Assembly: GCA_017858735.1 (NCBI GenBank)
Contig: JAFMBH010000005.1
Location: 1 to 64,000 of the forward strand
Direction: 5' to 3'
From: Bacteroidota bacterium
Lineage (GTDB): Bacteria > Bacteroidota > Bacteroidia > Chitinophagales > Saprospiraceae
DNA length: 64,000 bases
The position numbers and the translations under genes were made by a program. The notes under the pieces are model-generated. The model was not told the origin of the DNA. It ran no database searches and saw nothing but the letters and a program-made list of their open reading frames with translations. Numbering within the stretch: the first letter of the stretch is position 1; each line of letters opens with the position of its first letter. Positions 3,406 through 21,602 of the stretch are shown one piece after another.

Positions 3406-3429
3406 GTAATTATTTTTGCTTATAAAATT

Positions 3430-3459
3430 AAAAAAGGGAATGATAAAATTTTCATTCCC
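3430..3459 (-). terminator. rho-independent terminator after the DoxX-like gene
   Basis: On the minus strand GGGAATGA, an 8-nt loop and TCATTCCC form a perfect 8-bp stem (3436-3443 with 3452-3459), followed at once by six U (3430-3435). It lies between the stop of the DoxX-like gene and the ATG of the glycosidase at 3405, so the two are separate transcription units. Confidence 0.75.
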
Positions 3460-3493
3460 CTTCAATTAAATATAGTTTATAAATACATTAAAG

Positions 3494-3957: not shown

Positions 3958-5190
3958 TTATCCCTTTTGAAATACTTTTATATAATCCACAACAAACCAA
4001 CGGGGGAAAACGGTTCTTGCGTCGGGTGAGCCAGGAAAATTACCACCGATGGCCAGATTGACGATAAAAAAGAAAGATTGATTAAACGGATAGGGTTGGC
4101 CGTTCAAATCGGCAGGGGTCAATTGGTGATATGGTACATTATTTACCAGCCATTGAATCTTATTTTCTTCCCAGATGATAGAAAACACATTAAATGAAGT
4201 ATTAAAATCATATTCACCGGAGGAAAAGGTAGCGCCAGTTCTAAACCTGTGCTGCGCCACCGTGGCACCAAAATGTGCGGTACCCACCACTCTGTTTATT
4301 TTATCACCACTCGTTTCCATAATATCTATCTCACCGCAAGCGGGCCAGGGAACCTGAGGTATATTATCCCCTAACATCCAGAGCGCCGGCCAATACCCCT
4401 TTCCTTCAGGAACAGCGGCTCGAATGTCGATACGTCCATATTTGAACGATTTCTTTCTTTGCGTTGTCAGTCTGGAGGAGGTATAATTTTTACCACCTAC
4501 CGTTTCCTTTTTTCCCTCAATGATTAAATATCCGTCGGAAAGCTGGGCATTTTTTTCCTGATAAAATTGTAACTCATTATTTCCCCAGTTGCAATTTCCC
4601 GGACATCCATCGCCCAGTTCGTAGTTCCAAACGGCACTATTCAGATTAGTTCCCTGAAAACTCTCCTCCCAAACTTTGGTAAAGCCAGTATAGCTATCGG
4701 GTGAAATATATCCAGTTTTAGGGATATTTATCTTGTCAATCAAACTAAAATCATCGTTAACCAGGGTAATTGTCAATCGAGTAGGTTCACTTAAGGTAGC
4801 ATTTAAAGCTTGAATGAGTACAATTTCCAGTTTTTCGTCAGTCTCCTTAACGGCATCCCCAAATATTTTAATAGGAATGAACACGGTAAGTTCTCCTGGT
4901 TTAATGAATATTTTGCCCTCTGTAATCTCCTCATAATCAGTCCCTGGTGTAGCTGTTAACCCATTAACCTGATATTTAACCATCACCTGGGTCCTGTTTT
5001 CCCCTTTCAGTTGAATACCTAACTGTATAGTGGTGTCTTTATTACCCTCGGGAATAGAGAGAGCTTGAGCAATGAAAGAAACCTGTGGCGCATTATAATC
5101 TGGCAACTCATCGATATCCCCCTCCTTAAAACACCCTTGAATCAAAAGTAAAAAGGGCAAAAACTTAAAAATGTATATTACGTTTTTCAT
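3958..5190 (-). CDS. GH16 endo-beta-glucanase (laminarinase-like) lipoprotein with Calx-beta domain
   Basis: 410 aa. A lipoprotein signal ends in LIQGC (C20), so it is probably surface-anchored. Residues about 35-147 form a Calx-beta-like domain (PGTDYEEITEGKIFIKPGE, ITLVNDD). Residues about 168-408 are the GH16 jelly roll with the active-site signature GEIDIMETSG: nucleophile E287, helper D289, acid/base E292. The nearby WGNNELQFY and WPALWML segments are typical of bacterial beta-1,3(4)-glucanases. Its ATG directly abuts the stop of the upstream GH16 gene, so the two are co-translated. It is the last gene of the SusCD operon. The likely role is endo-cleavage of laminarin or mixed-linkage glucan at the cell surface. 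Confidence 0.9.
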   Translation of the reverse strand: MKNVIYIFKFLPFLLLIQGCFKEGDIDELPDYNAPQVSFIAQALSIPEGNKDTTIQLGIQLKGENRTQVMVKYQVNGLTATPGTDYEEITEGKIFIKPGELTVFIPIKIFGDAVKETDEKLEIVLIQALNATLSEPTRLTITLVNDDFSLIDKINIPKTGYISPDSYTGFTKVWEESFQGTNLNSAVWNYELGDGCPGNCNWGNNELQFYQEKNAQLSDGYLIIEGKKETVGGKNYTSSRLTTQRKKSFKYGRIDIRAAVPEGKGYWPALWMLGDNIPQVPWPACGEIDIMETSGDKINRVVGTAHFGATVAQHRFRTGATFSSGEYDFNTSFNVFSIIWEENKIQWLVNNVPYHQLTPADLNGQPYPFNQSFFFIVNLAIGGNFPGSPDARTVFPRWFVVDYIKVFQKG

Positions 5191-6003
5191 TTAGTCCTTT
5201 TTTTGATAAACTCTCACATAATCGATAGAAAATCGGGCGGGGAAAGCTGTTGCATCAACCCCCATTTTACCTCCGAGGTTACCCCCAACGGCAAGGTTCA
5301 AAATGACATGAAAAGGTTGGTCAAAAGGCCATTGTTTACTATTTGCCAATGCCTCCTTATAGAAAGTAAAATAAATTTTCCCGTCAAATAAAAAATCCAT
5401 TTTTTCAGGAGTCCAGTCTATGGCATATAAATGATAGTCCTCGTGTGGCTTTATTTTACCAACGCCTCCTCCCTTTTGCGTACCAATCATGTGATTGAAA
5501 GCTTCCGTATGAACGGTGCCGAAAATAGAATCCTGAGCAAACCCTACGTGTTCCAACAAATCAATTTCTCCACTTCCCGGCCATTCTCCGTAGTTGTTTT
5601 TCTCTGGCAAGAGCCAGATAGCAGCCCAGGTACCTAAGCCAACGGGTGTTTTTGCTCTCATTTCAAAATAGCCATATTTCCAGGAAGCCCTGTTTCTGGT
5701 AAGCATCCTGGCAGAAGTATATTCCTTCCCTCCCATTTTTTCTGGTCGGGCCTCAATGGTTAATTTTCCATCTTTTACAGAGGCATTGTCGATATCTGCC
5801 TCGGTGTAATATTGCCACTCATTATTTCCCCAACCACAGATTCGGGGACAACCATCACCCACATCATAAGTCCATTTACTGGCATCCGGTAATCCCTCTG
5901 TTGAAAATTCATCAGACCAGACAAGTTTGTACTTTTTGGGAGGTTTTGACATGGAAAACAACAAAAAAGCACACAGAATTGAATAAAAAGTTAAGTATTT
6001 CAA
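5191..6003 (-). CDS. GH16 endo-beta-1,3-glucanase (laminarinase-like), catalytic domain only
   Basis: 270 aa: a hydrophobic signal segment (residues 1-19) without a lipobox, then a single GH16 domain. The signature GEIDLLEH gives nucleophile E146, D148 and acid/base E151. The WGNNEWQYY and WAAIWLLPEKN segments match laminarinase-type GH16. It shares the CGWGNNE/NCNWGNNE region with the downstream GH16 but lacks the Calx-beta module, so the pair probably works in different compartments: this one secreted or periplasmic, the other lipid-anchored. There is no gap to the downstream gene. It belongs to the SusCD operon. Confidence 0.9.
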   Translation of the reverse strand: MKYLTFYSILCAFLLFSMSKPPKKYKLVWSDEFSTEGLPDASKWTYDVGDGCPRICGWGNNEWQYYTEADIDNASVKDGKLTIEARPEKMGGKEYTSARMLTRNRASWKYGYFEMRAKTPVGLGTWAAIWLLPEKNNYGEWPGSGEIDLLEHVGFAQDSIFGTVHTEAFNHMIGTQKGGGVGKIKPHEDYHLYAIDWTPEKMDFLFDGKIYFTFYKEALANSKQWPFDQPFHVILNLAVGGNLGGKMGVDATAFPARFSIDYVRVYQKKD

Positions 6004-6014
6004 AATTAAAACGT

Positions 6015-6854
6015 TTATCTAGCTTCAAAATATAATTCAAACCAACCACCCCCTTTTAAAAATGGAGTTCTTACAATCATCTCTTTTTCCGTTAATCTCA
6101 CGATGTCATAGACATTTGAGGCATCCCAAACCCCCATGAAGGCACCTTCCGGAAGTTCAATGCGAGGAACACCTGCAGGACCAATAGGAATAAGTTGCCA
6201 TTGTGGTTTTCCCGGCAAAGAAAAAGGTACCGGCTTATATCCATTCCAAGGATCAACAGTTAATCCATTATTTTCATAAATAAATTTGTTTTCTGCCCAG
6301 GCAAAACAAAAATTATCATCGTACTGCTCATTCTGGAGACCATTTAGCGGAGAAGTAAACCATTCGGCAGAACCTGGCGTTGGACCAACGGCTACCGCCC
6401 CTGCTTTTTTACTGAAAGTCCAGCATTTTCGACTGGTTGGGTCACACCCACCTGCTAAAAGAGTCGCTAAACCAGTACAAGGAGTAACAGCATCTTTAGG
6501 TATAACCACGGAAAAACTTTGCTGCCCAGTGCCAGAGCCACCTTTAAATGAACCTGACCATAATATGTTATACCGCCCAGCTTTAGGAAAATAAAAAGTA
6601 TCTAATCCCTTTTTTGTCCTGTCAGGACTGGCTCCTACGGCCGACCATAAACGATCAAAAACCAAATCACTTTTCTCACTAACCACCACCCGATTAGAAT
6701 CTGTTTTTAACTGAACAACCGAAAGGGTAGGTAAATCTGGTGATTTTCCTAATTGAATATCAGGTTCCTGATAAGATTCACATCCTAAAAATAGGGTGCT
6801 GATAAGTATAAAAATGGGTAATCCCCTGGATAATATATAAAAAAATGGTTTCAT
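6015..6854 (-). CDS. surface glycan-binding lipoprotein (SusE-position, PKD-like)
   Basis: 279 aa lipoprotein; the signal ends in TLFLGC (C25). Residues about 40-125 resemble a PKD/Ig-like beta-sandwich (SEKSDLVFDRLWS, AGRYNILWSG). The C-terminal half (about 130-279) is rich in Trp and aromatic residues (CWTFSKKAG, WDASNVYDIVRL, GGGWFELYF) and looks like a compact sugar-binding beta-domain. It sits directly after SusD and before two GH16 genes, where laminarin loci carry their surface glycan-binding protein. The function is inferred from lipoprotein nature and position; no catalytic motif is seen. Confidence 0.65.
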   Translation of the reverse strand: MKPFFYILSRGLPIFILISTLFLGCESYQEPDIQLGKSPDLPTLSVVQLKTDSNRVVVSEKSDLVFDRLWSAVGASPDRTKKGLDTFYFPKAGRYNILWSGSFKGGSGTGQQSFSVVIPKDAVTPCTGLATLLAGGCDPTSRKCWTFSKKAGAVAVGPTPGSAEWFTSPLNGLQNEQYDDNFCFAWAENKFIYENNGLTVDPWNGYKPVPFSLPGKPQWQLIPIGPAGVPRIELPEGAFMGVWDASNVYDIVRLTEKEMIVRTPFLKGGGWFELYFEAR

Positions 6855-6875: not shown

Positions 6876-8372
6876 TTAATAGCCCTGATTTTGGGTAACA
6901 GCGCCATTACTTGCCTGAATTTGAGATTGAGGAATAGGAAACACCTTATGAATATTTTCCTTATATCCTAAAGGGCCCAGAAAACTTACCGCTCTCCCGG
7001 TTCTCACCAAATCAAAAAACCGATGTCCTTCCAATGCGAGTTCCAGCCTTCTTTCATTATAAATAGCCTCTAACAATGTATTTCCTGAAGAAGTTATTTC
7101 TGGCAATTTAACTCTTGCTCTTACTTGATTCAATGCATTTCTGGCGATGGTCTGATCGCCTGACTGGAAAGAAGCTTCAGCAAAAAGAAGCAGCACATCA
7201 GCGTATCTGATTACCCGGTCATTCGTTCCTCCGTTAGGATTTGGATCTCCGAAAGTGGCTTGTTCACTTCTGTTATTAAAGTATTTTTTACCGTAGTAAT
7301 CGTGAGGATAACCTCCTGTAGCCTCTTTTGTAAAAATTCCGCGATCGCCCATGGGCTCTCCCACTCTAAAAACGGTAGCTTTTAATCGGGGATCTTCTGT
7401 GCCTGTAGCTAGAAAAGCATCAACCAGACTTTTGGTTGGGATATTAAATCCAAATCCATCGAATTGTCCTCGGGCGCGAACAAAAACATTGGTAAAGGTC
7501 CCTTCATTATTATTATTGTTACCCCAATTTCCCCCTGATTCCGTCATATATTGAATTTCAAATACCGATTCCACGCCATTTTCACCTGCTTTTGTAAAAA
7601 TACGATTGAAATCGGGCTCTAATTTGTACTCTCCGGACGAAATTAAAGCTTCCCCCACCTTTTTAGCTTCCGCCCACTTTTTACGCCACACCAACGATTT
7701 TAAAAGTAAGCCCTGAGCGGCTCCTTTTGTAATTCTTCCCAAATCAGCTTGCGTATATTGGCTTCGAAGGGGAAGATTTGAAACAGCAATGGTCAAATCA
7801 CTTTCAATTAAATTCCAGATACTTTCTGCGGAAGAACGGGGCATCTTATATTCTGAGGGAGACAAAAGGCGATCCACCTTAGGGACGTCGCCGAAAATAG
7901 TAACCAGATTATAAAAAAACCAGGCTCTGAGAAAATAGGCTTCGCCCAATATCCTTTTCTTTAATTTTTCGTCCATGACAATGGCGGGAACTTTTCCCAG
8001 CACAATATTCGCCCTGTTAATTCCCTCGTAATCAGCTGCCCATTCGGCCGCCAGATAACCAGTATTGACAGGACCTTGAAATTGTTCAAGAGCAGCCAAA
8101 AGAGGCTGATCATTGTCACCTGAACCACCTTTTACCGCGTCGTCAGACATAATATCGCCCCAAAACCATCGAAAATGCCCTTCTGGCGACATTTCAAATT
8201 GTAAAGTAGCATAAGCAGCATGAATAGCGGAAACTGCGTCGGCTTCTGTCTGATAGAAATTGTCAAGGGTTGTACCAACAAGCGGTTTTTTATCTAACAA
8301 TAATTCTTCACAACTGCTGAGAGAAAATAAAAACAGAAGTACAAACCATTTATTAATAATAAGATTCTTCAT
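6876..8372 (-). CDS. RagB/SusD family nutrient-uptake lipoprotein
   Basis: 498 aa. The lipoprotein signal ends in SLSSC (C21). The N-terminal part has the SusD-typical DNFYQTEADAVSAIHAAYATL helix. The TPR-like middle contains ILGEAYFLRAWFFYNLVTIFGDVP, the commonest SusD signature. The C-terminus has NERRLELALEGHRFFDLVRTG. The protein caps the SusC channel and binds glycan on the cell surface. It follows susC by 12 bp in the same operon. With the two GH16 enzymes, the expected ligand is a beta-1,3-glucan. Confidence 0.95.
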   Translation of the reverse strand: MKNLIINKWFVLLFLFSLSSCEELLLDKKPLVGTTLDNFYQTEADAVSAIHAAYATLQFEMSPEGHFRWFWGDIMSDDAVKGGSGDNDQPLLAALEQFQGPVNTGYLAAEWAADYEGINRANIVLGKVPAIVMDEKLKKRILGEAYFLRAWFFYNLVTIFGDVPKVDRLLSPSEYKMPRSSAESIWNLIESDLTIAVSNLPLRSQYTQADLGRITKGAAQGLLLKSLVWRKKWAEAKKVGEALISSGEYKLEPDFNRIFTKAGENGVESVFEIQYMTESGGNWGNNNNNEGTFTNVFVRARGQFDGFGFNIPTKSLVDAFLATGTEDPRLKATVFRVGEPMGDRGIFTKEATGGYPHDYYGKKYFNNRSEQATFGDPNPNGGTNDRVIRYADVLLLFAEASFQSGDQTIARNALNQVRARVKLPEITSSGNTLLEAIYNERRLELALEGHRFFDLVRTGRAVSFLGPLGYKENIHKVFPIPQSQIQASNGAVTQNQGY

Positions 8373-8384
8373 TTGCTTAATTTT

Positions 8385-11300
8385 TTAAAATCCAAGTTGT
8401 AAACCCATTGAAGCCATTCTTGCCTGCGGATAGAAACCTCTGTCGATGCCTAATTCCAGAGAACCACCCACACTTCCAATTTCAGGATCTAACCCGGAAT
8501 ATTTTGTCAGCGTCCATAAATTTTGACCACTGAAATAAATTCTGGCCTTATCGATTTTCCATTTTTTCAACAACTTGTACTTTAAGTCGTATCCTATTTG
8601 AATATTCTTTAACCGCACAAAGGAACCATCTTCAATAAAACGGTCCGACACCCTGGCATTCTTATTTGGGTCATTTACATTAACTCTCGGTTCTGAGTTT
8701 GAAGTACCCGCGCCGGTCCACCTGTTTAAGGCAGATTGAGGTCTGTTCGAATAGAAAAAGTCATACCTGAATATGCCATTATAAATATCATTTCCCTGAG
8801 TTCCCTGAATAAAAACGCTTAAATCAAAGCCCTTCCATTGAACCTGGGAAGTAACACCGTAGGTAAAAGAAGGGGTAGGATTTCCAATATAAGTTTGATC
8901 TACTTCATTAATGATACCATCACCATTCAGATCTTTAAAACGAATATCTCCCGGCGCTGTTTTTTCATTTTGAAATGCGTGAGCATTAATTTCCTCCTGC
9001 GATTGGAAAATACCATCTGTTACGTAGCCATAAAAGGAAGCGACGGGGTATCCCACATCTGTTCTGGACACATTACCGGCAGAAAAAACATTCCCCGTGA
9101 TAATAGGTTCTCCACCAAGACCCAGACTTAGAACTTCTGACTTAACGAAACCAATATTAGCTCCTATGCTATAATTCAATGATTTCTTTTTCCCCTGATA
9201 AAGCAAGGATAATTCCAGGCCATTATTGGCCATAGTGCCTACATTCTGAAAAGGCGCCCTTAATCCAACCAGGGTAGGAATGGGTATTCTCGCAAGCATA
9301 TCTCTGGTCGTCTTTACATAGTAATCTGCCGTAAAATGAAATTTTCCATTGAACAATTCAAGATCGAGACCCGCATTAATTTGCTCCCCAGTTTCCCATT
9401 TCAAATCGGGATTACTGGCCTCTAAAGGAGTACTTCCGCTGGTAATGGTTTCCGACGAGCCAAAAGTATAATTCTGCCCGGGATAAACAATGGTTGTAAA
9501 ACTATACTCTCCAATTCTGTCATTTCCATTTTGCCCCCAGCTAGCTCTCAGTTTAAGGAAATTTAAGGCTTCTAATCCCCAGAAATCCTCTCTGCTTACG
9601 ACCCAACCAGCAGAAATTGAAGGGAAGTAACCATACCTGTTATTTTTACCAAATCGGGAAGAGCCATCCCTTCTAAGGGTAGTAGATAATAGATATTTAT
9701 TATCGTAATCATATTGAAAACGGGTAAAAAAGGAAAGCATACCCGAGGCCGACGCGAAATCACCAGAGCCTTGCGATTCTCTGGGTGCAATGGTATTTCC
9801 AAGAAAAGCATCCTTCACCTGATTCGAGGGCAGATTGGTATTTGAACCCGTTAAAAAATAATAACTGTTAGCCAGTGCCGTTGAGCCCAGCAAAGCGTTT
9901 AACTTATGTTTCCCTTTGGAATAATCCCAGGTAAGCACGTTTTCCCATTGCCAGTTTTGCCATGAGAAATCGTTTTTTATAACGGTATTAACCGGGTTCC
10001 GCTCACTTGCAGGGGCATCATTGCTCGCGGGATCCAGACTTAAATTGAAAGAAGGAATAAAGACAGACTGGCTGGCAAACGTCTCATCCCTATTGAAGGA
10101 AGACCTAAAAACCAAGCCTTTTCTTATATTTACATCTGCTTGAATACTACTCAAAACACGATTACTCTGCCATGTATTATGTTGATTTTCAATAGCATTA
10201 ACCGGGTTTGCCAAATCGGTGTCCACATAAATAGAATAATTGTAAGTTCCATCAAATTTACGGATGGAAGTCACTGGATCTATATTTAAAGCCCTTACTA
10301 ATGGCGTATTAAATTCATTATTTTCTGGAAGTCCATTTCTATTCAGATTAGTATAAAGAACATTTCCACTCATTTTTAGCCAGGGTTTTAGTTGTTGGCT
10401 AATATTCAGTCTGGCCGTATATCTCTCAAAACCCGATTTTGGACCACCAACTACGCCTGCCTGATTAAAATAACTACCGCTAAGCGCGAAGGTTGACAAC
10501 GCAGAGCCACCCGTTAGAGATAACTGATGACTTTGAATAGGTGCAATCTGGAAAATGGCTTCTTGCCAATCTGTACCTTTTCCCAGAGCATCCGGATTTG
10601 AAAAAGCAGCTAAAGGCGTTTTTCCTCCGGCAATATGGGCTTCATTTGATAGGATGGCATATTCTCTGGCATCGAGTAAATTCATTTTTTTCCAGGCTTG
10701 TTGCTGCCCAAAATAATTTTCATATTGAATAGAACCATATTGCTTATCGGCCATTTTTCCCGTTTTCGTCGTTATGACTACAACGCCATTAGCACCTCTT
10801 GAACCATATATGGCCGCTGATGCTGCATCTTTCAATACATTTATGGTAGCAATATCTCCAGGATTCAAAAAATCAATGCCTGATACGGGAACACCGTCCA
10901 CCAGATAAAGCGGCTCACTATCATTTATAGTACCCGTTCCTCTAATTCTTACAGACAGGGTACTTCCCGGTGAACCAGAATTTTGAGTAACCTGAACACC
11001 CGCAGTTTTTCCTTGAATGGCTTGTTCCGCCCTTAATAAAGGAACCCCCTCTAAATCTTTTGACGAAACTGTTGATACGGCACCAGATATAGAACTTCTA
11101 ATCTGAGTGCCGTAACCAACTACTACAATTTCATCCATAACTGAGGAGGAAGGATTTAATATTATTTGAAAAACGCGTGTATTTCCAACTAAAATTTCCC
11201 TTGTTTCCATGCCCAGATAGGAAATAACTAAAACACTTTTTTCATTAGGAACGGTTAATTCAAAGGTTCCATCCAATTCGGTAACAACGCCGTCTTGCGT

Positions 11301-11450
11301 ATTTTTAATCAAAACGGTGACACCAGTAAGTTTTTCATTACTTCCACTTTCCGAAACGGTCCCCGTAATTTTTATTTGTCCAAAGACTACATTACTTCCT
11401 ACAATGGAGGCAAGAATCAATAAGCATTTTAAAAGCCTCATTCCCATCAA
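8385..11450 (-). CDS. SusC/RagA family TonB-linked outer membrane transporter
   Basis: 1021 aa. A signal peptide (cut near VVFGQ) is followed by a carboxypeptidase-regulatory-like domain (about residues 26-105), then the SusC signature IVVVGYGTQ. The plug has QGKTAGVQVTQNSGSPG, PLYLVDGVP and ASAAIYGSRGANGVVVITTK. A 22-strand barrel ends in MGLQLGF. Two in-frame ATGs at codons 2 and 4 (MRLLKCLL) are also plausible starts. It imports oligosaccharides with SusD using TonB energy. It is the second gene of the operon, 13 bp after the T9SS protein. Confidence 0.96.
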   Translation of the reverse strand: MMGMRLLKCLLILASIVGSNVVFGQIKITGTVSESGSNEKLTGVTVLIKNTQDGVVTELDGTFELTVPNEKSVLVISYLGMETREILVGNTRVFQIILNPSSSVMDEIVVVGYGTQIRSSISGAVSTVSSKDLEGVPLLRAEQAIQGKTAGVQVTQNSGSPGSTLSVRIRGTGTINDSEPLYLVDGVPVSGIDFLNPGDIATINVLKDAASAAIYGSRGANGVVVITTKTGKMADKQYGSIQYENYFGQQQAWKKMNLLDAREYAILSNEAHIAGGKTPLAAFSNPDALGKGTDWQEAIFQIAPIQSHQLSLTGGSALSTFALSGSYFNQAGVVGGPKSGFERYTARLNISQQLKPWLKMSGNVLYTNLNRNGLPENNEFNTPLVRALNIDPVTSIRKFDGTYNYSIYVDTDLANPVNAIENQHNTWQSNRVLSSIQADVNIRKGLVFRSSFNRDETFASQSVFIPSFNLSLDPASNDAPASERNPVNTVIKNDFSWQNWQWENVLTWDYSKGKHKLNALLGSTALANSYYFLTGSNTNLPSNQVKDAFLGNTIAPRESQGSGDFASASGMLSFFTRFQYDYDNKYLLSTTLRRDGSSRFGKNNRYGYFPSISAGWVVSREDFWGLEALNFLKLRASWGQNGNDRIGEYSFTTIVYPGQNYTFGSSETITSGSTPLEASNPDLKWETGEQINAGLDLELFNGKFHFTADYYVKTTRDMLARIPIPTLVGLRAPFQNVGTMANNGLELSLLYQGKKKSLNYSIGANIGFVKSEVLSLGLGGEPIITGNVFSAGNVSRTDVGYPVASFYGYVTDGIFQSQEEINAHAFQNEKTAPGDIRFKDLNGDGIINEVDQTYIGNPTPSFTYGVTSQVQWKGFDLSVFIQGTQGNDIYNGIFRYDFFYSNRPQSALNRWTGAGTSNSEPRVNVNDPNKNARVSDRFIEDGSFVRLKNIQIGYDLKYKLLKKWKIDKARIYFSGQNLWTLTKYSGLDPEIGSVGGSLELGIDRGFYPQARMASMGLQLGF

Positions 11451-11463
11451 TTTGTTAGTTTAT

Positions 11464-13860
11464 TTATGGATTTATCACCAATTTGCGTACATCTCTCTTT
11501 TCACCCTGATATATTACGGCCCAATAAACGCCTGGTTGAAGACCTGATACATCAATGTTTAATGATTGTGTGGCCTTGGGTAAAGTGTAAGATTGGCAAA
11601 TACGTCCAAGGGCGTCCATCAACATCCACCGAGCTGATTCTGAGCCAGCTAATTTTAAATTCAACTGAATCTCATCGGTGGCAGGATTTGGAAAAATGCT
11701 GAACATCGGCGCGAAGTTAATGTCCCTGGCATCTGTTGTAGCACAACTTGTACAGGCATTAAAACAAGCTACACTTAAAACACTATCCTTACTAACCGTT
11801 AAAACCCTGTTTGTAAATCCTCCGGAAGTAACGGTACATGCTTCTCCACCTTTGAATTCTTCCTGCGCTGTCCATCCGTCAATTTGATATTTGAATTCAA
11901 ATTTTCCATCTGGTAAATTAATTTCCGCCGTCCAGATTTTATCATTATCGTCATCCTTCAGAGGATTACTATTGGCGGACCATTCATTAAATTGTCCACT
12001 CACATAAACCCCAACAAACGACTTGGTATAAGACTTCATATCTACCCTGAAAGTTACTTTTCTGGTTACCTGAACGCCACAATTTGCCGTGGTTGTACAT
12101 TGACCGAAGCAGGTATTTAAAATGGTATCTTTAGCAAAAGGTCCCATTTTTCTATCGTTGAAATTATCTGCATTGGCACAAGCCTGACCGCTGATATTTT
12201 CCTTACAACTATAATCGGCACAAGCACCATTGGTAAAAGTATAGAAAGAGGTGAAACCGATAGGTCTTTCAAAGGTAATGGAGTAAATACCGTCTTTATC
12301 AGCATCTTTTAGTTGAAAATTTCCTGGTACGCCAAAATTTCCGCCGCCAGCAATAAATATGCCCGTTGGAGAAACGGTGATATGCTGCGTACCAAGATTA
12401 ACCGTAAACTTAATGGCTTTTCCGCAAGCATAGCAACTATTGAAGCAAACCGTATCTGTTTTAACACCTGACGCAGGAATAACCAAATTCCTGTTGGTAA
12501 AACCACCATCGGTTACTGTACAGGTTTCGGTACCTAAAAATTCTTCTTGTTTTGCCCACTTATCGAGTTGAAACTTGTATTGGATAGTTCCCGGATCAAG
12601 GGTTAATCGCGTTGTCCAAATGCCGTCCTTGTCGTTGTCTTGAAGTGGGTTAGAACTATCAGACCAGTTATTAAAAGTTCCGCTGATATAAACCGTTTGA
12701 AAAGTGCCAGTGTATTTCTTCATATCAACGGCAAAATCAACCTCTATTTTACTAGGTGCGGCAGCTGTACACACTTTTATATCATCTATATAATTGGTAT
12801 CAGAGGAAGCGGCACCTGTTTTTCCAAAATCTGGAAAAAGGACAATGGTTTGATAGGTAAAACCGGCGGCTGGTTTTTTAGGGTCTTCCAAAGACGGTAA
12901 GGTTGGGTCAAAACAAATTTCTACCCATTCCTGAGCTTTTGGAACCTCCACCTGTTGTACCCAATTGGCACCACCTGTAGAGGCACCTTCTAATTTAACA
13001 GCAAAAACACCCGCTTTTTCCATCCACACCTTCATACATAACTTAGATCCAGGTGCGGCAAAACTTACCGGAATTTTCGGATTCGGGGAACTAAAAGCAC
13101 CTCCCCAAGTCTGGCTATCTGCTGGTTTAAATATTTCAATTACTTTTTTACTATCATTTCCAGCCGTTGCCGCAGGGTTATTCACTACTTTATTCTTTTG
13201 TCCATCTAATCCACTGCCAAAATATTGGAAAACGGTCGACGTGGAATCCACTTCAAAATCGAGTACCGTTTTACACCCTGGAGCAGGGGGAAGTTTCAAA
13301 ATGAAATCATCGAGATAGGAAGTTCCCGCTGATTGGGCTCCCGTTTTTCCAAAATCAACAAACACTACGATACGTTTATAACTGAAACCTAAAGCAGCTT
13401 TAAATGGATCTTCAATAGATGCCTTGCTTACATCAAAACAAATTTCAACCCACTCCTTAGCCTTATTTACAGGTTCTGTAATCGTCCAGTTAGGTCCATT
13501 ATTGGTTGATCCCTCAAATTTTAAAGCCACGTTTCCCACCTGATTCATCCATACTTTCATACAAACTAATGAACCAGGCTTACTTAAATCAACAGCCTTG
13601 TCGAAGTCAGGCGTAATGAATGCACCTGCCCAAGTTTGAGCGTCCGCTGGCTTTACATATTCGGCCACCTTCAAACTTGTATTTAACCCGGTCGCACTTG
13701 GGTTATTGATTATCTTATTTTTCTGCCCATCCAGGCCACTTCCAAAATATTGAAAATCCCTGCTAGTCTCCGGTTTTTCAAAATCCAGGATAACTGTTTG
13801 CCCCTGCATGGAATTCATGAATAGGGTAAAGCTAAAAAGTAAGTAAATTATTTTTTTCAT
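11464..13860 (-). CDS. secreted multi-module glycan-binding protein with T9SS sorting domain, no catalytic domain
   Basis: 798 aa with signal peptide (residues 1-21). Two duplicated beta-sandwich modules (about 22-189 and 197-364) share FQYFGSGLDGQKNK, W(A/G)GAF and GKTGA segments. Three further modules follow (about 372-479, 482-594, 599-706). The first and third are starch-binding/CBM48-like (TFNNWSDSSNPLQDNDKDGIW; QFNEWSANSNPLKDDDNDKIW). Each ends in a CF-x2-C...C cluster. A type A T9SS domain (about 719-798; SIFPNPATDEI, QPGVYWAVI) closes the protein. No glycosidase motif was found, so it is probably a cell-surface or released glycan binder. It is the first gene of the SusCD operon and is divergent from the regulator at 14074. 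Confidence 0.75.
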   Translation of the reverse strand: MKKIIYLLFSFTLFMNSMQGQTVILDFEKPETSRDFQYFGSGLDGQKNKIINNPSATGLNTSLKVAEYVKPADAQTWAGAFITPDFDKAVDLSKPGSLVCMKVWMNQVGNVALKFEGSTNNGPNWTITEPVNKAKEWVEICFDVSKASIEDPFKAALGFSYKRIVVFVDFGKTGAQSAGTSYLDDFILKLPPAPGCKTVLDFEVDSTSTVFQYFGSGLDGQKNKVVNNPAATAGNDSKKVIEIFKPADSQTWGGAFSSPNPKIPVSFAAPGSKLCMKVWMEKAGVFAVKLEGASTGGANWVQQVEVPKAQEWVEICFDPTLPSLEDPKKPAAGFTYQTIVLFPDFGKTGAASSDTNYIDDIKVCTAAAPSKIEVDFAVDMKKYTGTFQTVYISGTFNNWSDSSNPLQDNDKDGIWTTRLTLDPGTIQYKFQLDKWAKQEEFLGTETCTVTDGGFTNRNLVIPASGVKTDTVCFNSCYACGKAIKFTVNLGTQHITVSPTGIFIAGGGNFGVPGNFQLKDADKDGIYSITFERPIGFTSFYTFTNGACADYSCKENISGQACANADNFNDRKMGPFAKDTILNTCFGQCTTTANCGVQVTRKVTFRVDMKSYTKSFVGVYVSGQFNEWSANSNPLKDDDNDKIWTAEINLPDGKFEFKYQIDGWTAQEEFKGGEACTVTSGGFTNRVLTVSKDSVLSVACFNACTSCATTDARDINFAPMFSIFPNPATDEIQLNLKLAGSESARWMLMDALGRICQSYTLPKATQSLNIDVSGLQPGVYWAVIYQGEKRDVRKLVINP

Positions 13861-13994: not shown

Positions 13995-14013
13995 AATGAT
14001 AATGATTAAAAGT

Positions 14014-14021
14014 TATCTTTA
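14014..14021 (+). promoter_or_regulatory. possible -7 box of the regulator gene
   Basis: TATCTTTA matches TAnnTTTG at seven of eight positions. It would give a leader of about 45 nt to the ATG at 14074 and would place the TACATCA array in the -35 to -65 region. Confidence 0.3.
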
Positions 14022-14073
14022 CAAAAGTGTCTTCAAAAAAGGCTTTATTACTAATAATTATCAATGGAAGATT

Positions 14074-16890
14074 ATGGGAAATTTCTTTTTGGCCATTTCT
14101 TTCTTTTCCTTACTTTTTATTTTTCCGACTTTCACAAATAGTCAGGGGCTACCCTTTATTTCAAATTTTGAAAAAGGGGTTTATCAAGGTGGGACACAAC
14201 ACTGGGAAATCACTTCTGATGCTTATGGGGTTTTGTACGTCGCTAATAATGATGGCTTATTAACTTACGATGGATATGCCTGGCGAAAATATCCCGTTAA
14301 AAACCGCACCATTGTGCGATCTGTATTATTGGACAATAAAAATAAAATCTTTGTTGGCGCCCAGGGTGAGTTTGGATATTTTAAGGAAGATAACCCACGG
14401 GAAATGGTATATGTTTCTTTCCAAAAACAACTGGATTCTCTGAAGGTCAAACTGGAGGATATCTGGGATATTGTAAAAACCAACGAGGGCGTGATTTATT
14501 TTTATTCCGGGCGACAATTATTCCGTCTTGAAAATGGAAAAATAGATTTCCAGGAACTGCCCGCAGACATTTCTTACCTCGGCGTGACCGATAATCAACT
14601 GTTTATACATTGTTTACAAAAAGGACTATACAAACTCGACCAAAAGGGAATGCCCGTTTTTTTAACTTCCATTCCCTTAAAAGACGGTCCCATTACGAAA
14701 GTCATGCCGTTCAGTAAGAATATCTTCCTGGTAGCAACCTTGGAGGGTTCCCTTTACCTTTTTGACGGAAAAAAGCTGAATTTATGGGATAATCAGGCAA
14801 AAGAATATCTTTCCCGACACAAAATCTATACAGCAACTATCATTAACAATGGGCAATTTGCGTTGGGAACTTCCAGAGGTGGCGTTGTTATTTTGGACAA
14901 ATATGGAAAAACCCAATTTATACTAAACAAGGAAAATGGACTGATTAACAATAATGTGCTAAGTCTTTTTAATGATAAACAGGGAAATCTATGGGCAGGT
15001 ACGGATAATGGCATCTCCTGTATTCAACTTTTTTACCCCTTCACTTATCTTTATCCCGACGAAAATATGGGCGGAACAGCCTATTCTGCCATAAAAAAAG
15101 GAAGAAATTTCTATTTTGGTACAGTGAATGGCCTCTACCAACATACATCAGAAGAAAATGGTCGATTGGCAAAATCAAAGGCTTATCTCATTCCCAGCAC
15201 GGACGGGCAAGTCTGGCAGGTACAATCTTTTGGTAATGAAATCTGGGTAGGTCATCACCTTGGTGCTTTTGTTTTTAATGAAAATGAAAAACCCAGACAT
15301 ATATTGAAAAATACGGGCGCCTGGCTTTTTAAAGAAATCCCGGGGGTTAAAAACAAACTTCTCTGTGGCTCATACAATGGCATTTACCTCCTTGAAAATA
15401 AAAATAACACATGGAATCCTCTTGGTAAATTATCCCGATTTGATGAGTCTGCCAGAATAATCATCCCGGAATCAAATCATTCCTTTTGGATTGCTCATCC
15501 CTATCGAGGCATTTTTAATCTTCGTTTAGATGAATCTGATTTCTTTTCTTCCAGCGTTACCTATTTGAATACCAAACAAAAGTTACCCTCAAATAATGGA
15601 AATTCTGTTTATTCCATATATAATCAATCCGTTTTTACTACAGAAAATGGTATTTACAAATATGATCCTATCCAACGCTCCTTCTTTCCCTATACTTTGT
15701 TGAATCAAGTTTTTGGAACGTCTACTAAAGTTAAAACCTTAGTGGAAGGATCTGATGGGGATATTTGGTTTGCTCAGGGTGATGAGGTGGGGTATTTGGC
15801 CCGTTCCAGGGAGCGTTCCGATTCGATGGTATTTAAAAAGAAAATGATCCCATTTTTAAAAAATAAACTGGTGGGTGGTTTTGAATTTATCTATCCATAC
15901 CAAAAAGATAAAGTGCTTTTTGGAACCGATAAGGGTTTCCTATTTTATGACATGAAAATCCAGAATCAATATCCGGAAAATATCCTTTTGCGTCATTTTT
16001 CATTTGATAAAAACCTGAATGCTGCCTCTTTTGAATATGTTTTACCCTATTTATCCCAAAGTCTGAATATTCAATATGCTATAAAACTGGAAGGATTTGA
16101 TAAGGCGTGGAGACCCTGGACGAAGGACAATAAAATGACTTATAGCAATTTACCACCTGCATCTTACCGCTTTCTGGTAAAAGCCCGAATTGAAGGAATA
16201 AAGTCATGGAAACCCCTTTCATTTTCCTTTACCGTCGATCCTCCCTGGTACTTAAGTCGTGGGGTCAAAATTTTCTACCTTTTTGTTTTCCTGTTGTCCA
16301 TTTTCCTTTTACTATTTATTCCCCGAAAAAGATTCGACAAGGAAAAGAAATTAATGGAGCAAAAACTTCAAAAGAAGACGCTATCAGAGAAAATCAGAGC
16401 AGACAAAGCTTTAGAGGATATTGTTCGATTGGAAAATGAAAAATTACAACTCGACAACGATACCAAGAATCAGGAATTAGCCTCAACAACATTACATCTT
16501 CTGCAAAAAAATGAATTAATTCAAGACCTAAGCATAAAACTTAGCGAAATAAGCAAATCAAGTAAGGAAAAAGAGACGAAACAAGCGATAGATCAACTAC
16601 TTAACAGAGTGGCCAATGATCAACAAATGGATGAAGACTGGGAGGTTTTTGCGCTTCATTTTAATCAGGTCCACCTAGATTTTTTACACAGAATAACAGA
16701 AAAATACCCGGATATCACCCCTAAGGACCAAAAACTCTGCGCTTTTTTAAGAATGAATCTGTCCTCTAAAGAAATAGCTCCTCTATTGGGAATATCTATC
16801 AGGGGGGTTGAAATAAGCCGTTACCGATTAAGAAAAAAGCTTCACCTGGGTGCAGATGACAATCTTTCTACCTTCATTTTACATTTTTAA
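14074..16890 (+). CDS. membrane-spanning propeller sensor with LuxR-type HTH (SusR-like regulator)
   Basis: 938 aa from the ATG at 14074, chosen because MGNFFLAISFFSLLF... is a signal peptide; a 26-codon longer frame begins at 13996. Residues about 25-650 are a periplasmic two-component-type beta-propeller (repeats such as GNLWAGTDNGISC and GDIWFAQGD). A Y_Y_Y domain follows (about 665-735; YAIKLEGFDKAWRPW), then one membrane helix (about 730-752; FYLFVFLLSIFLLLF), a coiled coil, and a C-terminal LuxR-like HTH (about 875-938; LSSKEIAPLLGISIRGVEISRYRLRKKL). There is no kinase or receiver domain. It is probably the glucan-responsive activator of the divergent operon. Its 3' end overlaps the convergent lyase gene by 12 bp. 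Confidence 0.85.
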   Translation: MGNFFLAISFFSLLFIFPTFTNSQGLPFISNFEKGVYQGGTQHWEITSDAYGVLYVANNDGLLTYDGYAWRKYPVKNRTIVRSVLLDNKNKIFVGAQGEFGYFKEDNPREMVYVSFQKQLDSLKVKLEDIWDIVKTNEGVIYFYSGRQLFRLENGKIDFQELPADISYLGVTDNQLFIHCLQKGLYKLDQKGMPVFLTSIPLKDGPITKVMPFSKNIFLVATLEGSLYLFDGKKLNLWDNQAKEYLSRHKIYTATIINNGQFALGTSRGGVVILDKYGKTQFILNKENGLINNNVLSLFNDKQGNLWAGTDNGISCIQLFYPFTYLYPDENMGGTAYSAIKKGRNFYFGTVNGLYQHTSEENGRLAKSKAYLIPSTDGQVWQVQSFGNEIWVGHHLGAFVFNENEKPRHILKNTGAWLFKEIPGVKNKLLCGSYNGIYLLENKNNTWNPLGKLSRFDESARIIIPESNHSFWIAHPYRGIFNLRLDESDFFSSSVTYLNTKQKLPSNNGNSVYSIYNQSVFTTENGIYKYDPIQRSFFPYTLLNQVFGTSTKVKTLVEGSDGDIWFAQGDEVGYLARSRERSDSMVFKKKMIPFLKNKLVGGFEFIYPYQKDKVLFGTDKGFLFYDMKIQNQYPENILLRHFSFDKNLNAASFEYVLPYLSQSLNIQYAIKLEGFDKAWRPWTKDNKMTYSNLPPASYRFLVKARIEGIKSWKPLSFSFTVDPPWYLSRGVKIFYLFVFLLSIFLLLFIPRKRFDKEKKLMEQKLQKKTLSEKIRADKALEDIVRLENEKLQLDNDTKNQELASTTLHLLQKNELIQDLSIKLSEISKSSKEKETKQAIDQLLNRVANDQQMDEDWEVFALHFNQVHLDFLHRITEKYPDITPKDQKLCAFLRMNLSSKEIAPLLGISIRGVEISRYRLRKKLHLGADDNLSTFILHF

Positions 16891-18147: not shown

Positions 18148-18855
18148 ATGAAACCAATAGTACAAATATCATTGGACCTCACTAATATTGATGAGGCGTT
18201 AGAAACCGCAGCCATGGCCCTCCGCGCTGGCGTCGATTGGCTGGAAGCTGGAACTCCCCTCATTTTAGCAGAGGGCTTGCATGGCGTAAGAAAACTTCGC
18301 GAAGCTTTTCCTGGTATTCCCATAGTTGCAGACTTGAAAACCATGGATGGTGGATACCTGGAAGCTGAAATGATGGCAAAAGCAGGCGCCACTCATGTGG
18401 TAGTTATGGCGCGCGCTCACGAAGAAACCATTAGATGTGTAGTTCAGGCAGGTAAAGACTATAATATTCAGGTTATGGGCGATAATCTGGGCTGTCCTGA
18501 CATGGTTGCCGGGGCAAAATGGCTGGAAGACCTGGGTTGTGATTTTGTGATTCATCATATTGGTTATGACGAGCGCAGGGGTATTGCCGCAAGAGGTCTT
18601 CGAATGCCTAATCCTCTGGATCAACTGAGGGAGGTCGTTGATGCTGTGCGTATTCCCGTACAGGCTGTTGGGGGCCTTTCCCTGGAACAAGCCATTCAAT
18701 GTCCTCTTTATGGCGCGCCCTTAGTGGTTTTGGGTGCCCCATTGACTATCGATGCCGATGCCTTTAAAACGGCAGATGGAAATTTAGAGGCTTCCCTCCG
18801 TTTAATTTGTGAAAAAATACATGCATACAAGGATGTTCCCGTCCGGTCTGCTTAA
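18148..18855 (+). CDS. OMPDC-suprafamily enzyme (hexulose-6-phosphate synthase / ketogulonate-phosphate decarboxylase-like)
   Basis: 235 aa TIM barrel. It has D10, E33 (WLEAGTP), the suprafamily signature DLKTMD (D62, K64, D67) and H136 (VIHHIGYDERRG), at nearly the positions known in E. coli UlaD. At position 112 it has Asp, as in hexulose-phosphate synthases, where UlaD has Glu; position 139 is Gly rather than Arg. So it leans to the HPS side or to a third specificity. It opens an operon of two dehydrogenases, an isomerase and a transporter. No kinase or 6-phospho-3-hexuloisomerase is nearby, so the usual pathways are incomplete. Family call strong, substrate open. Confidence 0.8.
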   Translation: MKPIVQISLDLTNIDEALETAAMALRAGVDWLEAGTPLILAEGLHGVRKLREAFPGIPIVADLKTMDGGYLEAEMMAKAGATHVVVMARAHEETIRCVVQAGKDYNIQVMGDNLGCPDMVAGAKWLEDLGCDFVIHHIGYDERRGIAARGLRMPNPLDQLREVVDAVRIPVQAVGGLSLEQAIQCPLYGAPLVVLGAPLTIDADAFKTADGNLEASLRLICEKIHAYKDVPVRSA

Positions 18856-18866
18856 AATTTGAAAAT

Positions 18867-19901
18867 ATGTCCAGTTTATTAAGTCCCGCAGTAGTAAATT
18901 TTGCTCCTGAAAAAGGCTCTGTTGAGATTCGTGAAATCGCTGTTCCCATTATAGGTGATGATGATGTTTTATTGGAAGTAGTCAATGTAGGTGTTTGTGG
19001 CAGTGACTTGCATCAATGGACAGCCGATCATAGCTGGCCTGTAAATTATCCTGTCGTTTTAGGTCATGAATTTGGTGGTCTTATTGCCGCATTAGGTAAA
19101 AATGTCTCTGTTTGGAAGGAAGGAGACAGGGTGGTTAGCGAAACCGCTGCCATTATCAATCCTAATAGCCCTATGTCAAAAACAGGATTGTATAATCTCG
19201 ATCCCGATAGAAAAGGATTTGGTTATGGTGTAAATGGTGCCATGACACGATATGTTAGGGTCCCTGCACGTTGTCTGCATCGGGTACCTACTCATTTATC
19301 CTTTGAAGAAGCTTGTTTGACAGAACCTTGCTGTGTTGCCTATAATTCTGTAGCTTTTAATAGTTCCGTAAAACCTGGCGATCGGGTTATTGTCATTGGT
19401 CCGGGCACTATAGGCATATTATGTGCCGCTGTAGCACGCATTTGTGGTGCCGAAGTAGCCGTCGTTGGCCTTGAATCTGATAAATTAAGATTGGATATCG
19501 CAAAACAATATGGTTGTGAAACCATCATCGGAGACGCCACAGAATGGGCGAAAGACAGGGACGGACTAGGCGCCGACCTTATTGTGGATGCCGCTGGTGC
19601 AAGTATTACCCTAAAAATGGCGTTGCAATGGGTCAGACCTAACGGTCAAATAACTAAAGTGGGCTGGGGTCCTCAACCTCTTGGCTTTTCTCTCGATCCT
19701 TTGGTTCAAAAAAATGTAACCCTAAAAGGTAGTTTTAGTCATAATTGGCCAATCTGGGAAAGGGTGATTGCACTCCTCGCGAGTGGTAGCCTCAATGTGA
19801 AACCTATCATTGGTGGCGTTTGGGCCATCGATCAATGGAAAGAGGCTTTTGAAAAAATGCACCACGGCGAAGTAGTCAAAAGTGTCCTTAAACCCTTCTG
19901 A
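18867..19901 (+). CDS. zinc-type medium-chain alcohol/polyol dehydrogenase
   Basis: 344 aa MDR protein. Catalytic-zinc ligands are visible: C44 (VCGSDLHQW), H67-E68 (GHEFGG) and E153 (LTEPCC). The Rossmann glycine motif is GPGTIG (178-183). The structural-zinc lobe, normally four closely spaced Cys, is replaced by a Cys-free stretch (about 92-125; AAIINPNSPMSKTGLYNLDPD). Relatives oxidise polyols, threonine or sugar acids to ketones with NAD(P). It follows the decarboxylase by 11 bp, so it may supply a keto acid to it. Specificity cannot be read from sequence. Confidence 0.85.
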   Translation: MSSLLSPAVVNFAPEKGSVEIREIAVPIIGDDDVLLEVVNVGVCGSDLHQWTADHSWPVNYPVVLGHEFGGLIAALGKNVSVWKEGDRVVSETAAIINPNSPMSKTGLYNLDPDRKGFGYGVNGAMTRYVRVPARCLHRVPTHLSFEEACLTEPCCVAYNSVAFNSSVKPGDRVIVIGPGTIGILCAAVARICGAEVAVVGLESDKLRLDIAKQYGCETIIGDATEWAKDRDGLGADLIVDAAGASITLKMALQWVRPNGQITKVGWGPQPLGFSLDPLVQKNVTLKGSFSHNWPIWERVIALLASGSLNVKPIIGGVWAIDQWKEAFEKMHHGEVVKSVLKPF

Positions 19902-19902
19902 T

Positions 19903-20697
19903 ATGCGCCTTCACGGTAAAGTTATTATTGTTACAGGAAGTACCACCGGTATTGGCAAGGCAATGGCCTCCCGATTCGTTCAGGAGGGTGCCAAAGTAGT
20001 CATTCATGGTTTGGAAAAGGATTGGGGCGAGGAGGTTATTCATGCCCTGGGTAGCGAAAATGCTGCACTTTGTATCGGTGATCTCCAAGACGAAGCGACT
20101 ATAAAGGAATTGGTGCGTTGTGCTATCCTTTCTTTTGGGAAATTGGACTCGGTCGTTAATAATGCCGCTTGGGTGGTATCTTCTAATCTGGATTCTACAG
20201 ACGCCTCTTTTTTTGAAAAAATTTTGAAAATCAATACGATAGCTCCTTTTCTACTCATTAAGGAAAGTCTTCCCTATTTGACCGCTCAAAGAGGATCCGT
20301 GTTGAATATTGGCTCCGTAAATGCCTATAGTGGAGAACCCGATTTACTCGCTTATAGTGTATCAAAAGGTGGATTAATGACCCTGACCAGAAATTTGGGC
20401 GATACCTTACACCGGGAAAATGGCGTTAGGGTGAATCAAATTAATCCAGGTTGGGTGCTGACAGAAACGGAACAGCAAAGAAAAATGTCCCATGGATTAT
20501 CAGGAAATTGGTTTGAAAAAATTCCTTCTGTTTTTGCCCCTTCCGGCCGGCTCATAAAGCCAGAAGAAATTGCCGCCGCCGCAGTCTATTGGCTGGGTGA
20601 CGAATGTGGCCCTATCTCCGGACAAATTGTTGAATTGGAACAACATCCTTTCATTGGAAGAAATCCCCCAAAAGATTCTTCTACCATAAATCATTAA
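19903..20697 (+). CDS. short-chain dehydrogenase/reductase (SDR)
   Basis: 264 aa from the ATG at 19903, one base after the upstream stop; a frame starting at 19882 would overlap that gene and add seven residues before the first strand. Classical SDR: TGSTTGIG (11-18), NNAA (86-89), S138, YSVSK with Y151 and K155, and NPGWVLTE after the active site. It reduces or oxidises a hydroxyl with NAD(P). Tight coupling to the MDR gene suggests two successive oxidations or an oxidation/reduction pair on one sugar or sugar acid. Confidence 0.88.
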   Translation: MRLHGKVIIVTGSTTGIGKAMASRFVQEGAKVVIHGLEKDWGEEVIHALGSENAALCIGDLQDEATIKELVRCAILSFGKLDSVVNNAAWVVSSNLDSTDASFFEKILKINTIAPFLLIKESLPYLTAQRGSVLNIGSVNAYSGEPDLLAYSVSKGGLMTLTRNLGDTLHRENGVRVNQINPGWVLTETEQQRKMSHGLSGNWFEKIPSVFAPSGRLIKPEEIAAAAVYWLGDECGPISGQIVELEQHPFIGRNPPKDSSTINH

Positions 20698-20698
20698 A

Positions 20699-21583
20699 AT
20701 GCCTCAATTAGCCGCTTTTCCGAAGGCCTATATGAATGCGCTTTGTAAAGATGGAACCATGAAGGTTTCTGAATGGATTGATATCGCCTGCCGCCTTGAT
20801 ATTGATGGCCTCGAATGGTATGCAGGGTTTCTGGAAATGGAAAATGCTGATAACTGGAAAATTTTCCGACGTCAGGTGGAAGATAATGGTAAGGTTATCC
20901 CTATGATGTGCTGTTCTCCAGATTTCACTCATCCCGATAAGGCATTTCGCGACATAGAAATAGCTAAACAAAAGCATTGGATTGACATGACTTATGCGCT
21001 CGGAGGAAAGTTTTGCAGAGTTCTTTCAGGGCAAAAAAGACCCGAATTATCCATTGACCTGGGTATTCAACTTGCTGCCGACTGCATTCATGAATGCTTA
21101 CCTTATGCACAAGAGCGGGATATCACGCTCATCATTGAAAATCATTACAAGGATGATTTCTGGACATACCCGGAATTTGCCCAAAAAATGGACGTGTTTT
21201 GCGCCCTGGTAGATAAAATTAATCATCCCTTTTTTGGGGTAAATTATGATCCGAGCAATACCTATCTGGCCGGTGAGGATCCATTGGAATTATTGAAAAG
21301 AGTAGTGCATCGCGTGGTCACCATGCATGCCAGCGACCGATATTTGAAAGAAGGCACCCTGGAAGACCTGAGAAACGAGGAGGGAGGTGTCGTGGGCTAT
21401 GCCAAACGCCTCAGTCATGGTGAAATTGGAAAAGGCCTGAACGATTATGATGCCATATTTACCCTGTTAAAAAAACAAAATTTCAACGGGTGGATAAGTA
21501 TTGAAGACGGCGTAGATGGCATAGAACAACTGGAACGAAGCGTATTATTTTTGCGTAAAAAAATGAAGGAATATTTCTCCTGA
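20699..21583 (+). CDS. sugar phosphate isomerase/epimerase-type TIM barrel protein
   Basis: 294 aa, xylose-isomerase-like/AP-endonuclease-2 fold. Metal-site type residues are seen in LIIENHYKDDFW (Glu/His), NYDPSNTYL (Asp) and VTMHASDRY (His), and near the end GWISIEDGVDG (Glu). It has no signal peptide, so it is cytoplasmic, unlike the Tat-exported relative at 29987. It starts one base after the SDR stop. It probably isomerises or epimerises a keto sugar in the same pathway. Members of this superfamily have very diverse reactions, so no substrate is claimed. Confidence 0.8.
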   Translation: MPQLAAFPKAYMNALCKDGTMKVSEWIDIACRLDIDGLEWYAGFLEMENADNWKIFRRQVEDNGKVIPMMCCSPDFTHPDKAFRDIEIAKQKHWIDMTYALGGKFCRVLSGQKRPELSIDLGIQLAADCIHECLPYAQERDITLIIENHYKDDFWTYPEFAQKMDVFCALVDKINHPFFGVNYDPSNTYLAGEDPLELLKRVVHRVVTMHASDRYLKEGTLEDLRNEEGGVVGYAKRLSHGEIGKGLNDYDAIFTLLKKQNFNGWISIEDGVDGIEQLERSVLFLRKKMKEYFS

Positions 21584-21602
21584 AAACTGATTATTCCTAT
21601 AA

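Follow-up and report, generated by a model that had tools for sequence, protein, structure and literature searches.

The stretch of DNA analysed here, hereafter the window, comprises 64,000 nucleotides of contig JAFMBH010000005.1 from a Bacteroidota bacterium of the family Saprospiraceae, and its minus strand carries an open reading frame (ORF) for a protein of 798 amino acids (aa), with exactly the coordinates given in an earlier description made from the letters alone (the sequence-only reading). This ORF is the head gene of a six-gene operon on the same strand, in which it is followed, after a gap of 13 bp, by genes for a SusC-like transporter, a SusD-like protein, a lipoprotein and two glycoside hydrolases of family 16 (GH16), the later gaps being 0-21 bp (Table 1). 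Its product is built of two N modules, two A modules enclosing a B module, and a C-terminal tag of the type IX secretion system (T9SS), and no catalytic family scored above cut-off in Pfam and NCBIfam scans. The ORF coordinates, these scans and the operon gaps confirm the sequence-only reading of five modules without a catalytic domain at the head of an operon, and sequence analysis supports its view that a GH16 beta-glucanase operon begins here with a protein of several modules that probably binds glycan.

Table 1. The head gene, its modules, and adjoining genes of the window
Feature	Position	Strand	Size or residues	Basis
T9SS cargo, operon head gene, N-N-A-B-A-tag	11464..13860	-	798 aa
Putative signal peptide, no lipobox Cys	13801..13860	-	residues 1-20	by eye from sequence
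N1, X584-type laminarin-binding family	13294..13797	-	residues 22-189	phmmer, profile, model, fold search
N2, 57% identical to N1	12766..13269	-	residues 198-365	sequence comparison
A1, AMPK1_CBM/CBM48-like	12418..12753	-	residues 370-481	Pfam, profile search, contact-residue alignment
B, starch-binding fold, no Pfam/NCBIfam family	12073..12417	-	residues 482-596	profile and predicted fold
A2, AMPK1_CBM/CBM48-like	11728..12072	-	residues 597-711	Pfam, profile search, contact-residue alignment
T9SS type-A C-terminal sorting domain	11473..11697	-	residues 722-796	Pfam and NCBIfam
SusC-like TonB-dependent transporter	8385..11450	-	1021 aa	named by eye; homologues recur beside head gene
SusD-like protein	6876..8372	-	498 aa	named by eye; homologues recur
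Lipoprotein, lipobox by eye	6015..6854	-	279 aa	full-length relative of 7kv5 'PKD domain protein', E 1.3e-6
GH16	5191..6003	-		Pfam; best solved relative is laminarinase 3iln, E 4.5e-90
Calx-beta and GH16	3958..5190	-		Pfam; best solved relatives are ULam111 (5wut, E 1.1e-63) and GH16 laminarinases
Regulator, Reg_prop and Y_Y_Y, divergent	13996..16890	+		Pfam; C-terminal helix-turn-helix match weak, sub-threshold
Putative glycosidase	1264-3465	-	733 aa	weak Glyco_hydro_36N match, 17 bits vs cut-off 27

The duplication of a beta-sandwich of ~168 residues that had been noticed at the N-terminus is borne out by the identity of N1 and N2 (96 of 167 residues, 57%; z = 41), and there is a second duplication in A1 and A2 (56 of 114, 49%; z = 26), from which B is more distant at 27% and 28% identity (z = 5 and 8; 200 shuffles in each case). 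A profile-profile comparison of B with A (probability 99.2%, E 6e-20) makes B a diverged relative of A. TRF found no tandem repeat in the DNA of the gene, so the duplications are visible at the protein level only. Each of A1, B and A2 is closed, as had been described, by a CF-x2-C type motif (CFNSC at 472, CFGQC at 584 and CFNAC at 699). The T9SS tag also holds, since both Por_Secre_tail from Pfam (residues 722-796, 44.4 bits vs cut-off 27) and TIGR04183 from NCBIfam (39.1 bits vs 23) score above cut-off on the same tail. At another site the genome has adjacent genes for the corresponding machinery (GldM, 268 bits, and GldN, 184 bits, both over cut-off), and on these sequence matches the protein is a T9SS type-A cargo; by eye it has no lipobox and the T9SS tag is present instead of a lipoprotein anchor. 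NCBIfam matches to T9SS_plug, GlgB and M36, which lie in the CBM48-like region or the tail and score far below cut-off, were set aside.

By sequence and predicted fold, N1 and N2 are members of the X584 family of laminarin-binding carbohydrate-binding modules (CBMs), and by that kinship would themselves bind laminarin. N1 alone finds Protein Data Bank (PDB) entry 8qx6, titled 'Novel laminarin-binding CBM X584' and released 2024-09-18, with phmmer (E 2.4e-4), and a profile of 36 N copies, taken from those of at least 100 residues among 76 found in all, finds it at E 6.6e-27, the homology extending across almost all of the domain. An AlphaFold2 model of N1, the copy modelled (pLDDT 97.4, pTM 0.91), has 8qx6 as its top Foldseek match (E 3.4e-9), and a second structure aligner gives Z 18.6 with a root-mean-square deviation (rmsd) of 2.3 over 152 residues, the next entry among the 50 matches listed having Z 13.4. 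The nearest fold neighbours after 8qx6 among these matches are CBM11 mixed-linkage glucan modules and an exo-beta-agarase domain, and the N profile has a faint relative in CBM4 of laminarinase 16A (1gui, E 4e-4). The sequence-only reading had suggested that the duplicated module founds a new CBM family, and no convincing Pfam family covers it: InlK_D3 (PF18981) reaches 26.2 bits on the whole protein but 21.5 bits against a cut-off of 25 on N1 alone, spans 38 residues and is taken as spurious, while CBM_4_9 matches are weak and confined to 4 of the 36 N members (best E 5.7e-5). The relationship to 8qx6 by both profile and fold nevertheless places N in a known family and leaves the suggestion with hardly any probability, unless CAZy were to split the family, the identity of N1 to 8qx6 over the structural alignment being only 21%. 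A match of the N profile to Ika8 (6g6o) has no single significant stretch and is taken as chance. X584 with 8qx6 is presumably CBM102 or CBM103, a CAZy number that we assume, and its publication is reportedly that of Zuehlke et al. in Environ Microbiol 26:e16624 of 2024, a link to 8qx6 that we likewise assume.

N modules occur in 25 of the 60 genomes searched, that of the window included, with 1 to 7 copies per protein. The largest number, seven, is reached in a paralog of 1215 aa that this genome encodes at a site not in the window (locus L050 on contig G000:C160, 6836-10480, minus strand), which is flanked by two PF10091 'Glycoamylase' proteins and followed by GH3 and SusC. We take PF10091 to cover GH144 beta-1,2-glucanases; the locus may thus be one for beta-1,2-glucan, in which case N would serve more than laminarin.

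The three remaining modules had been described as CBM48/starch-binding-like, which stands for A1 and A2, as both score above the Pfam cut-offs of AMPK1_CBM (61.5 bits vs 26.8) and CBM_48 (44.9 bits vs 22.4), each in two stretches. The A profile retrieves yeast SIP2 and AMPK beta, and the AMPK1_CBM matches of the genome at E<=0.001 are both inside this gene. For B the description stands as to the predicted fold and fails as to family. No Pfam family matches the window B at E<=0.01, and among the 49 B members aligned (of 62 non-redundant and 85 in all) only CFSR matches, in 4, and no NCBIfam family does. A profile search of the PDB gave no convincing relative by sequence; a match to the BP39L lectin (6gxr) has no single significant stretch and is taken as chance. 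Whole B-array proteins have sub-threshold Pfam matches only, to CBM26 (25.0 vs 28.1 bits) and X25. B, which the sequence-only reading had also proposed for a structure search (as 482-594), nonetheless has the starch-binding fold in its structure model (pLDDT 95.6), with the CBM20 of STBD1 (8x8k) found by Foldseek at E 2.7e-5 and by the second aligner at Z 9.9 (rmsd 2.7 over 95 residues, 14% identity). The predicted fold is thus like that of CBM20, 25, 26 and 41, from which B differs in its low identity to 8x8k, in the lack of a Pfam match to the window copy and in its own invariant residues (E74, R90 and the cysteines C81, C104 and C108). On this sequence and model evidence B is a module family with a CBM20-like fold that has no Pfam or NCBIfam name.

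B is also an autonomous module, since it is found without A in arrays of two to five copies. The T9SS tag is present in both of the stand-alone B arrays scanned, and in all four scanned proteins of another type (L097, L099, L100 and L101; ~890-1210 aa) three or four B modules lie behind FG-GAP/ASPIC-UnbV regions; a similar array at L098 is outside the four scanned. Partial matches in Rufibacter (L178-L180, E ~3e-4) were not counted as B, the L178 ORF reading as a six-hairpin glycosidase beside GH66. Hence the interest of the protein shifts from N to B, which is autonomous, occurs in up to five tandem copies and has no model in Pfam or NCBIfam.

That starch-type modules should head a GH16 locus had been called unexpected, and the oddity is real and recurrent. 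In total 61 loci were examined (the window, L038-L057 and L090-L129), the 60 fetched ones having been chosen for encoding N or the cassette and not for their neighbours; L130-L180, which partly repeat the same contigs, were not added to the count. A or B is present in 49 of the 61, and in 26 of these 49 the A/B gene lies directly before SusC. SusD comes next in 25 of the 26, with a 279-aa-type lipoprotein in 21 and GH16 in 22, and three of the four that lack GH16 break off at the edge of the locus or contig. The layouts at this position are N-N-A-B-A, N-A-B-A, N-N-A-B, N-N-A-B-A-B, N-A-N-A-B-A, A-A-B-A and B-B-B-B-B, the last two lacking N (A-A-B-A at L128, with GH16, and the five B modules at L096, where the locus ends before any GH16). 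In metagenome-assembled genomes (MAGs) of Flavobacteriales and other Bacteroidota, B-A-A-A or B-A-B-A can precede SusC and SusD, with no GH16 in the 6-kb flanks. The operon continues with GH3 or GH5-CBM6 in L112, L120, L125 and L129, and GH3 adjoins the A/B gene in all four Flavobacteriales loci whose neighbour was scanned (L149, L156, L168 and L170); two of these, L168 and L170, are of the B-A-A layout, and there GH16 and the lipoprotein lie on the opposite strand. A Pfam tally of neighbouring ORFs (100 of 127 unlabelled ones, omitting those of L097-L101, one of L121 and the loci L038, L039 and L057) has GH5 in 5 and GH3 in 3 among the 25 commonest of 160 families; alpha-amylase is absent from these 25, which does not exclude it as a rare family. 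The antisense ORF over SusC at L172:7866-12341 matched 0 families and was uninformative.

A second type of operon was also seen (L091-L095, L153, L164-L166 and L173), in which SusC, SusD and a 277-280-aa protein are followed by B-B or B-B-B and a protein of ~910 aa. Loci L164 and L166 of this type are from Phaeodactylibacter. In L095 the order is SusC, SusD, a PKD protein, B-B-B, a GH5-CBM35-CBM6 protein, an esterase and GH30.

Taking the module identities, the operon order with its recurrence and the secretion tag as established, the head-gene product is probably secreted by the T9SS and displayed at the surface, where it serves a beta-glucan utilisation operon as a glycan-binding protein that feeds beta-1,3-glucan to the SusC/SusD pair (SusCD). 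In this scheme the T9SS would carry the protein to the cell surface, where its X584-type N modules would, by analogy with 8qx6, capture laminarin-like beta-1,3-glucan, and the A-B-A cassette would, judging by its context, most likely add contacts to the same glucan. The polymer so held would then be cut by the two GH16 enzymes, which among solved structures are closest to laminarinases or beta-1,3-glucanases, and the pieces would be imported by SusCD with the 279-aa lipoprotein, as the anatomy of the operon and the established Sus model suggest. Activation of the operon is probably the task of the divergent Reg_prop/Y_Y_Y protein. The location of the genome's GH13 genes on contigs other than this one, and of both its AMPK1_CBM matches (E<=0.001) in the head gene, also speaks for this scheme.

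Several observations weigh against a beta-glucan catcher. The Sec signal peptide looks right but was judged by eye only. Among the 26 operons, L122 has no GH16 even though the locus continues, and the window, L038 and L039 are three nearly identical representatives of one genus. The other 23 of the 49 A/B loci have no SusC directly after the A/B gene. These comprise four genes of the N-N... or N-A-B-A kind that are close to the end of a contig or have no labelled neighbour (two of the four, the N-A-B-A genes of L045 and L118, are not at a contig edge and have no SusC next), two A/B arrays followed by GH16 (L090 and L103), B arrays in the second operon type (L091-L095), the five FG-GAP/ASPIC-type B arrays of L097-L101 (four scanned), again with no SusC next, and remaining loci without a labelled neighbour. 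B is present in the FG-GAP/ASPIC proteins, as well as in CotH proteins, for which no role in glucan use is evident, and A-A adjoins a peptidase in L177. N modules of the same genome adjoin PF10091 and GH3 proteins, so that N need not mean laminarin, and the fold neighbours of B, among the matches listed, are alpha-glucan modules or CBM20-type domains.

To these must be added the residues by which AMPK beta binds glycogen. W100, K126, W133 and N150 are given as critical residues of AMPK beta1 in the available excerpt of PMC4032982, and all four have equivalents in both A modules of the window, as in 30 of the 45 A modules aligned (45 of 66 non-redundant, 78 in all), with three kept in 11, two in 3 and one in 1. 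On the alignment, these residues argue for alpha-glucan and thus against beta-glucan as the ligand of A. A dual-specificity catcher can therefore be envisaged in which N holds beta-1,3-glucan and A, perhaps with B, alpha-glucan, the substrate being algal or microbial storage material with both. The CBM20-type fold of B (Z 9.9) and the presence of GH13 genes elsewhere in the genome (matches on contigs C41, C69, C75 and C199 and none on C90, that is, on contigs other than the window's) are in keeping with this. However, the further glycogen contacts L146 and T148, so named in an excerpt of PMC2642990, are mostly lost from A, being replaced by G in 40 of 45 and by F in 39 of 45 modules (columns mapped ungapped from that of N150). 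In the profile alignment with A, B retains only the aromatic at W133 (45 of 49), and has T at the position of K126 (42 of 49), D at that of N150 (43 of 49) and a variable residue at that of W100, a column that is uncertain as it lies near a gap with a conserved F (48 of 49) two positions away. Moreover, phmmer with five GH13-bearing ORFs of this genome as queries found no alpha-amylase-like gene in the 26 operons; the same screen of all fetched neighbourhoods gave one weak match (L098, E 6e-9), at a locus of a different type. Dual specificity is hence considered unlikely.

The beta-glucan reading of A and B, in contrast, finds its best argument in the proteins with A and B only, which hold the same operon position as those containing N; the argument is circumstantial. 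In the reading preferred here, the A-B-A cassette is probably a case of a starch-binding fold adapted to beta-glucan. More tentatively, and as a possibility to which we give less than even weight, B with the A-B-A cassette would constitute a new carbohydrate-binding family in which the CBM20/48 fold is re-purposed for helical beta-1,3-glucan and whose members, displayed by T9SS, are interchangeable with X584-type modules at the heads of beta-glucan operons in Saprospiraceae and Flavobacteriales. The weight given to this proposal was lowered slightly because 23 of the 49 A/B loci are outside the head position.

It is also conceivable that A and B bind nothing and are spacers which lift N off the membrane and stabilise the T9SS cargo, the glycan being bound by N only. 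CBM48 domains without measurable affinity have been published, as stated in an excerpt of PMC8040265, which weighs on the beta-glucan reading as well, and the cysteines conserved in each module type, A and B, together with the recurrence of B behind FG-GAP/ASPIC or CotH regions, would suit a structural role. Such a role does not explain the A/B-only proteins at the same operon head (L128, L096 and the Flavobacteriales loci), which contain no other candidate binder, nor the conservation of aromatic and charged residues in A and B, and spacers are judged slightly less plausible still than dual specificity.

As a surface-displayed beta-1,3-glucan catcher, the head-gene product would resemble a Sus-type surface glycan-binding protein (SGBP) in that its gene adjoins SusCD and has no catalytic domain, and would differ in having no lipoprotein anchor. 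The 279-aa lipoprotein, for which there is no Pfam match, is a full-length relative of PDB entry 7kv5, and the logic of the two operons is similar. This entry, with its PKD domain, we take to be the gut beta-glucan SGBP-B termed BfSGBP-B, reportedly from Tamura et al. in 2021; the head gene, in contrast, encodes a T9SS cargo and not a lipoprotein, and is present in addition to the 279-aa lipoprotein. Compared with X584, the N modules are T9SS-displayed alongside starch-fold modules. The A modules pass the CBM48 models yet differ from AMPK beta in extra cysteines, a CF-x2-C-x2-C end and a beta-glucanase context, besides the replaced contacts, while B matches neither the models nor, at most positions, the contact residues. 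BfSGBP-B is named as laminarin-binding in an excerpt of PMC11345257, and the available portions of PMC10877868 and PMC13235733 contain no description of a T9SS cassette of the A-B-A type; this is not a claim of its absence from print.

Should beta-1,3-glucan prove to be the ligand of A and B, it is misleading to annotate such Bacteroidota T9SS proteins as 'starch-binding'. N and A/B at one operon position would then be natural swaps for the study of specificity, and T9SS-borne glycan catchers that are not lipoproteins would count among the standard components of the group's beta-glucan loci.

Of 199 genomes of the bacterial family, 119 have a match to the 338-residue A-B-A stretch, and these fall in 76 of 112 genera, many of the matches being to single modules; matches near full length (alignment from position 6 or earlier to at least 333 of the 338 residues, at least 42% identity) were counted by hand in 32 of the 199. 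Among 395 genomes sampled evenly across the phylum, with at most 11 candidates per genome scored, the B profile matched 6 at E<=1e-8. Strong matches (E<1e-40) were confined to two genomes, which belong to the same family, one of them being the window's own. The closest relatives of B among named genomes are in MAGs labelled Saprospiraceae, Haliscomenobacter or Haliscomenobacteraceae, and one MAG with the label Haliscomenobacter hydrossis has the operon itself (L131). One genome of another family in the same class (G268; contigs C9, C17 and C43) has nine A/B-like matches in long frames.

Among other genes of the window, that of the 733-aa putative glycosidase, for which no solved relative was found, starts 492 bp beyond the last GH16, and fragments homologous to it come after the same operon in the two same-genus genomes of L038 and L039. 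On the other side, an Alginate_lyase gene (PF05426; 16879-18054, minus strand) ends right against the regulator gene of the beta-glucan operon. Beyond it, at 18148-22940 on the plus strand, is a run of catabolic genes that includes a HUMPS/OMPdecase-family protein by Pfam and, as named by eye, an alcohol dehydrogenase, a short-chain dehydrogenase, a sugar isomerase/epimerase-like protein and a membrane transporter.

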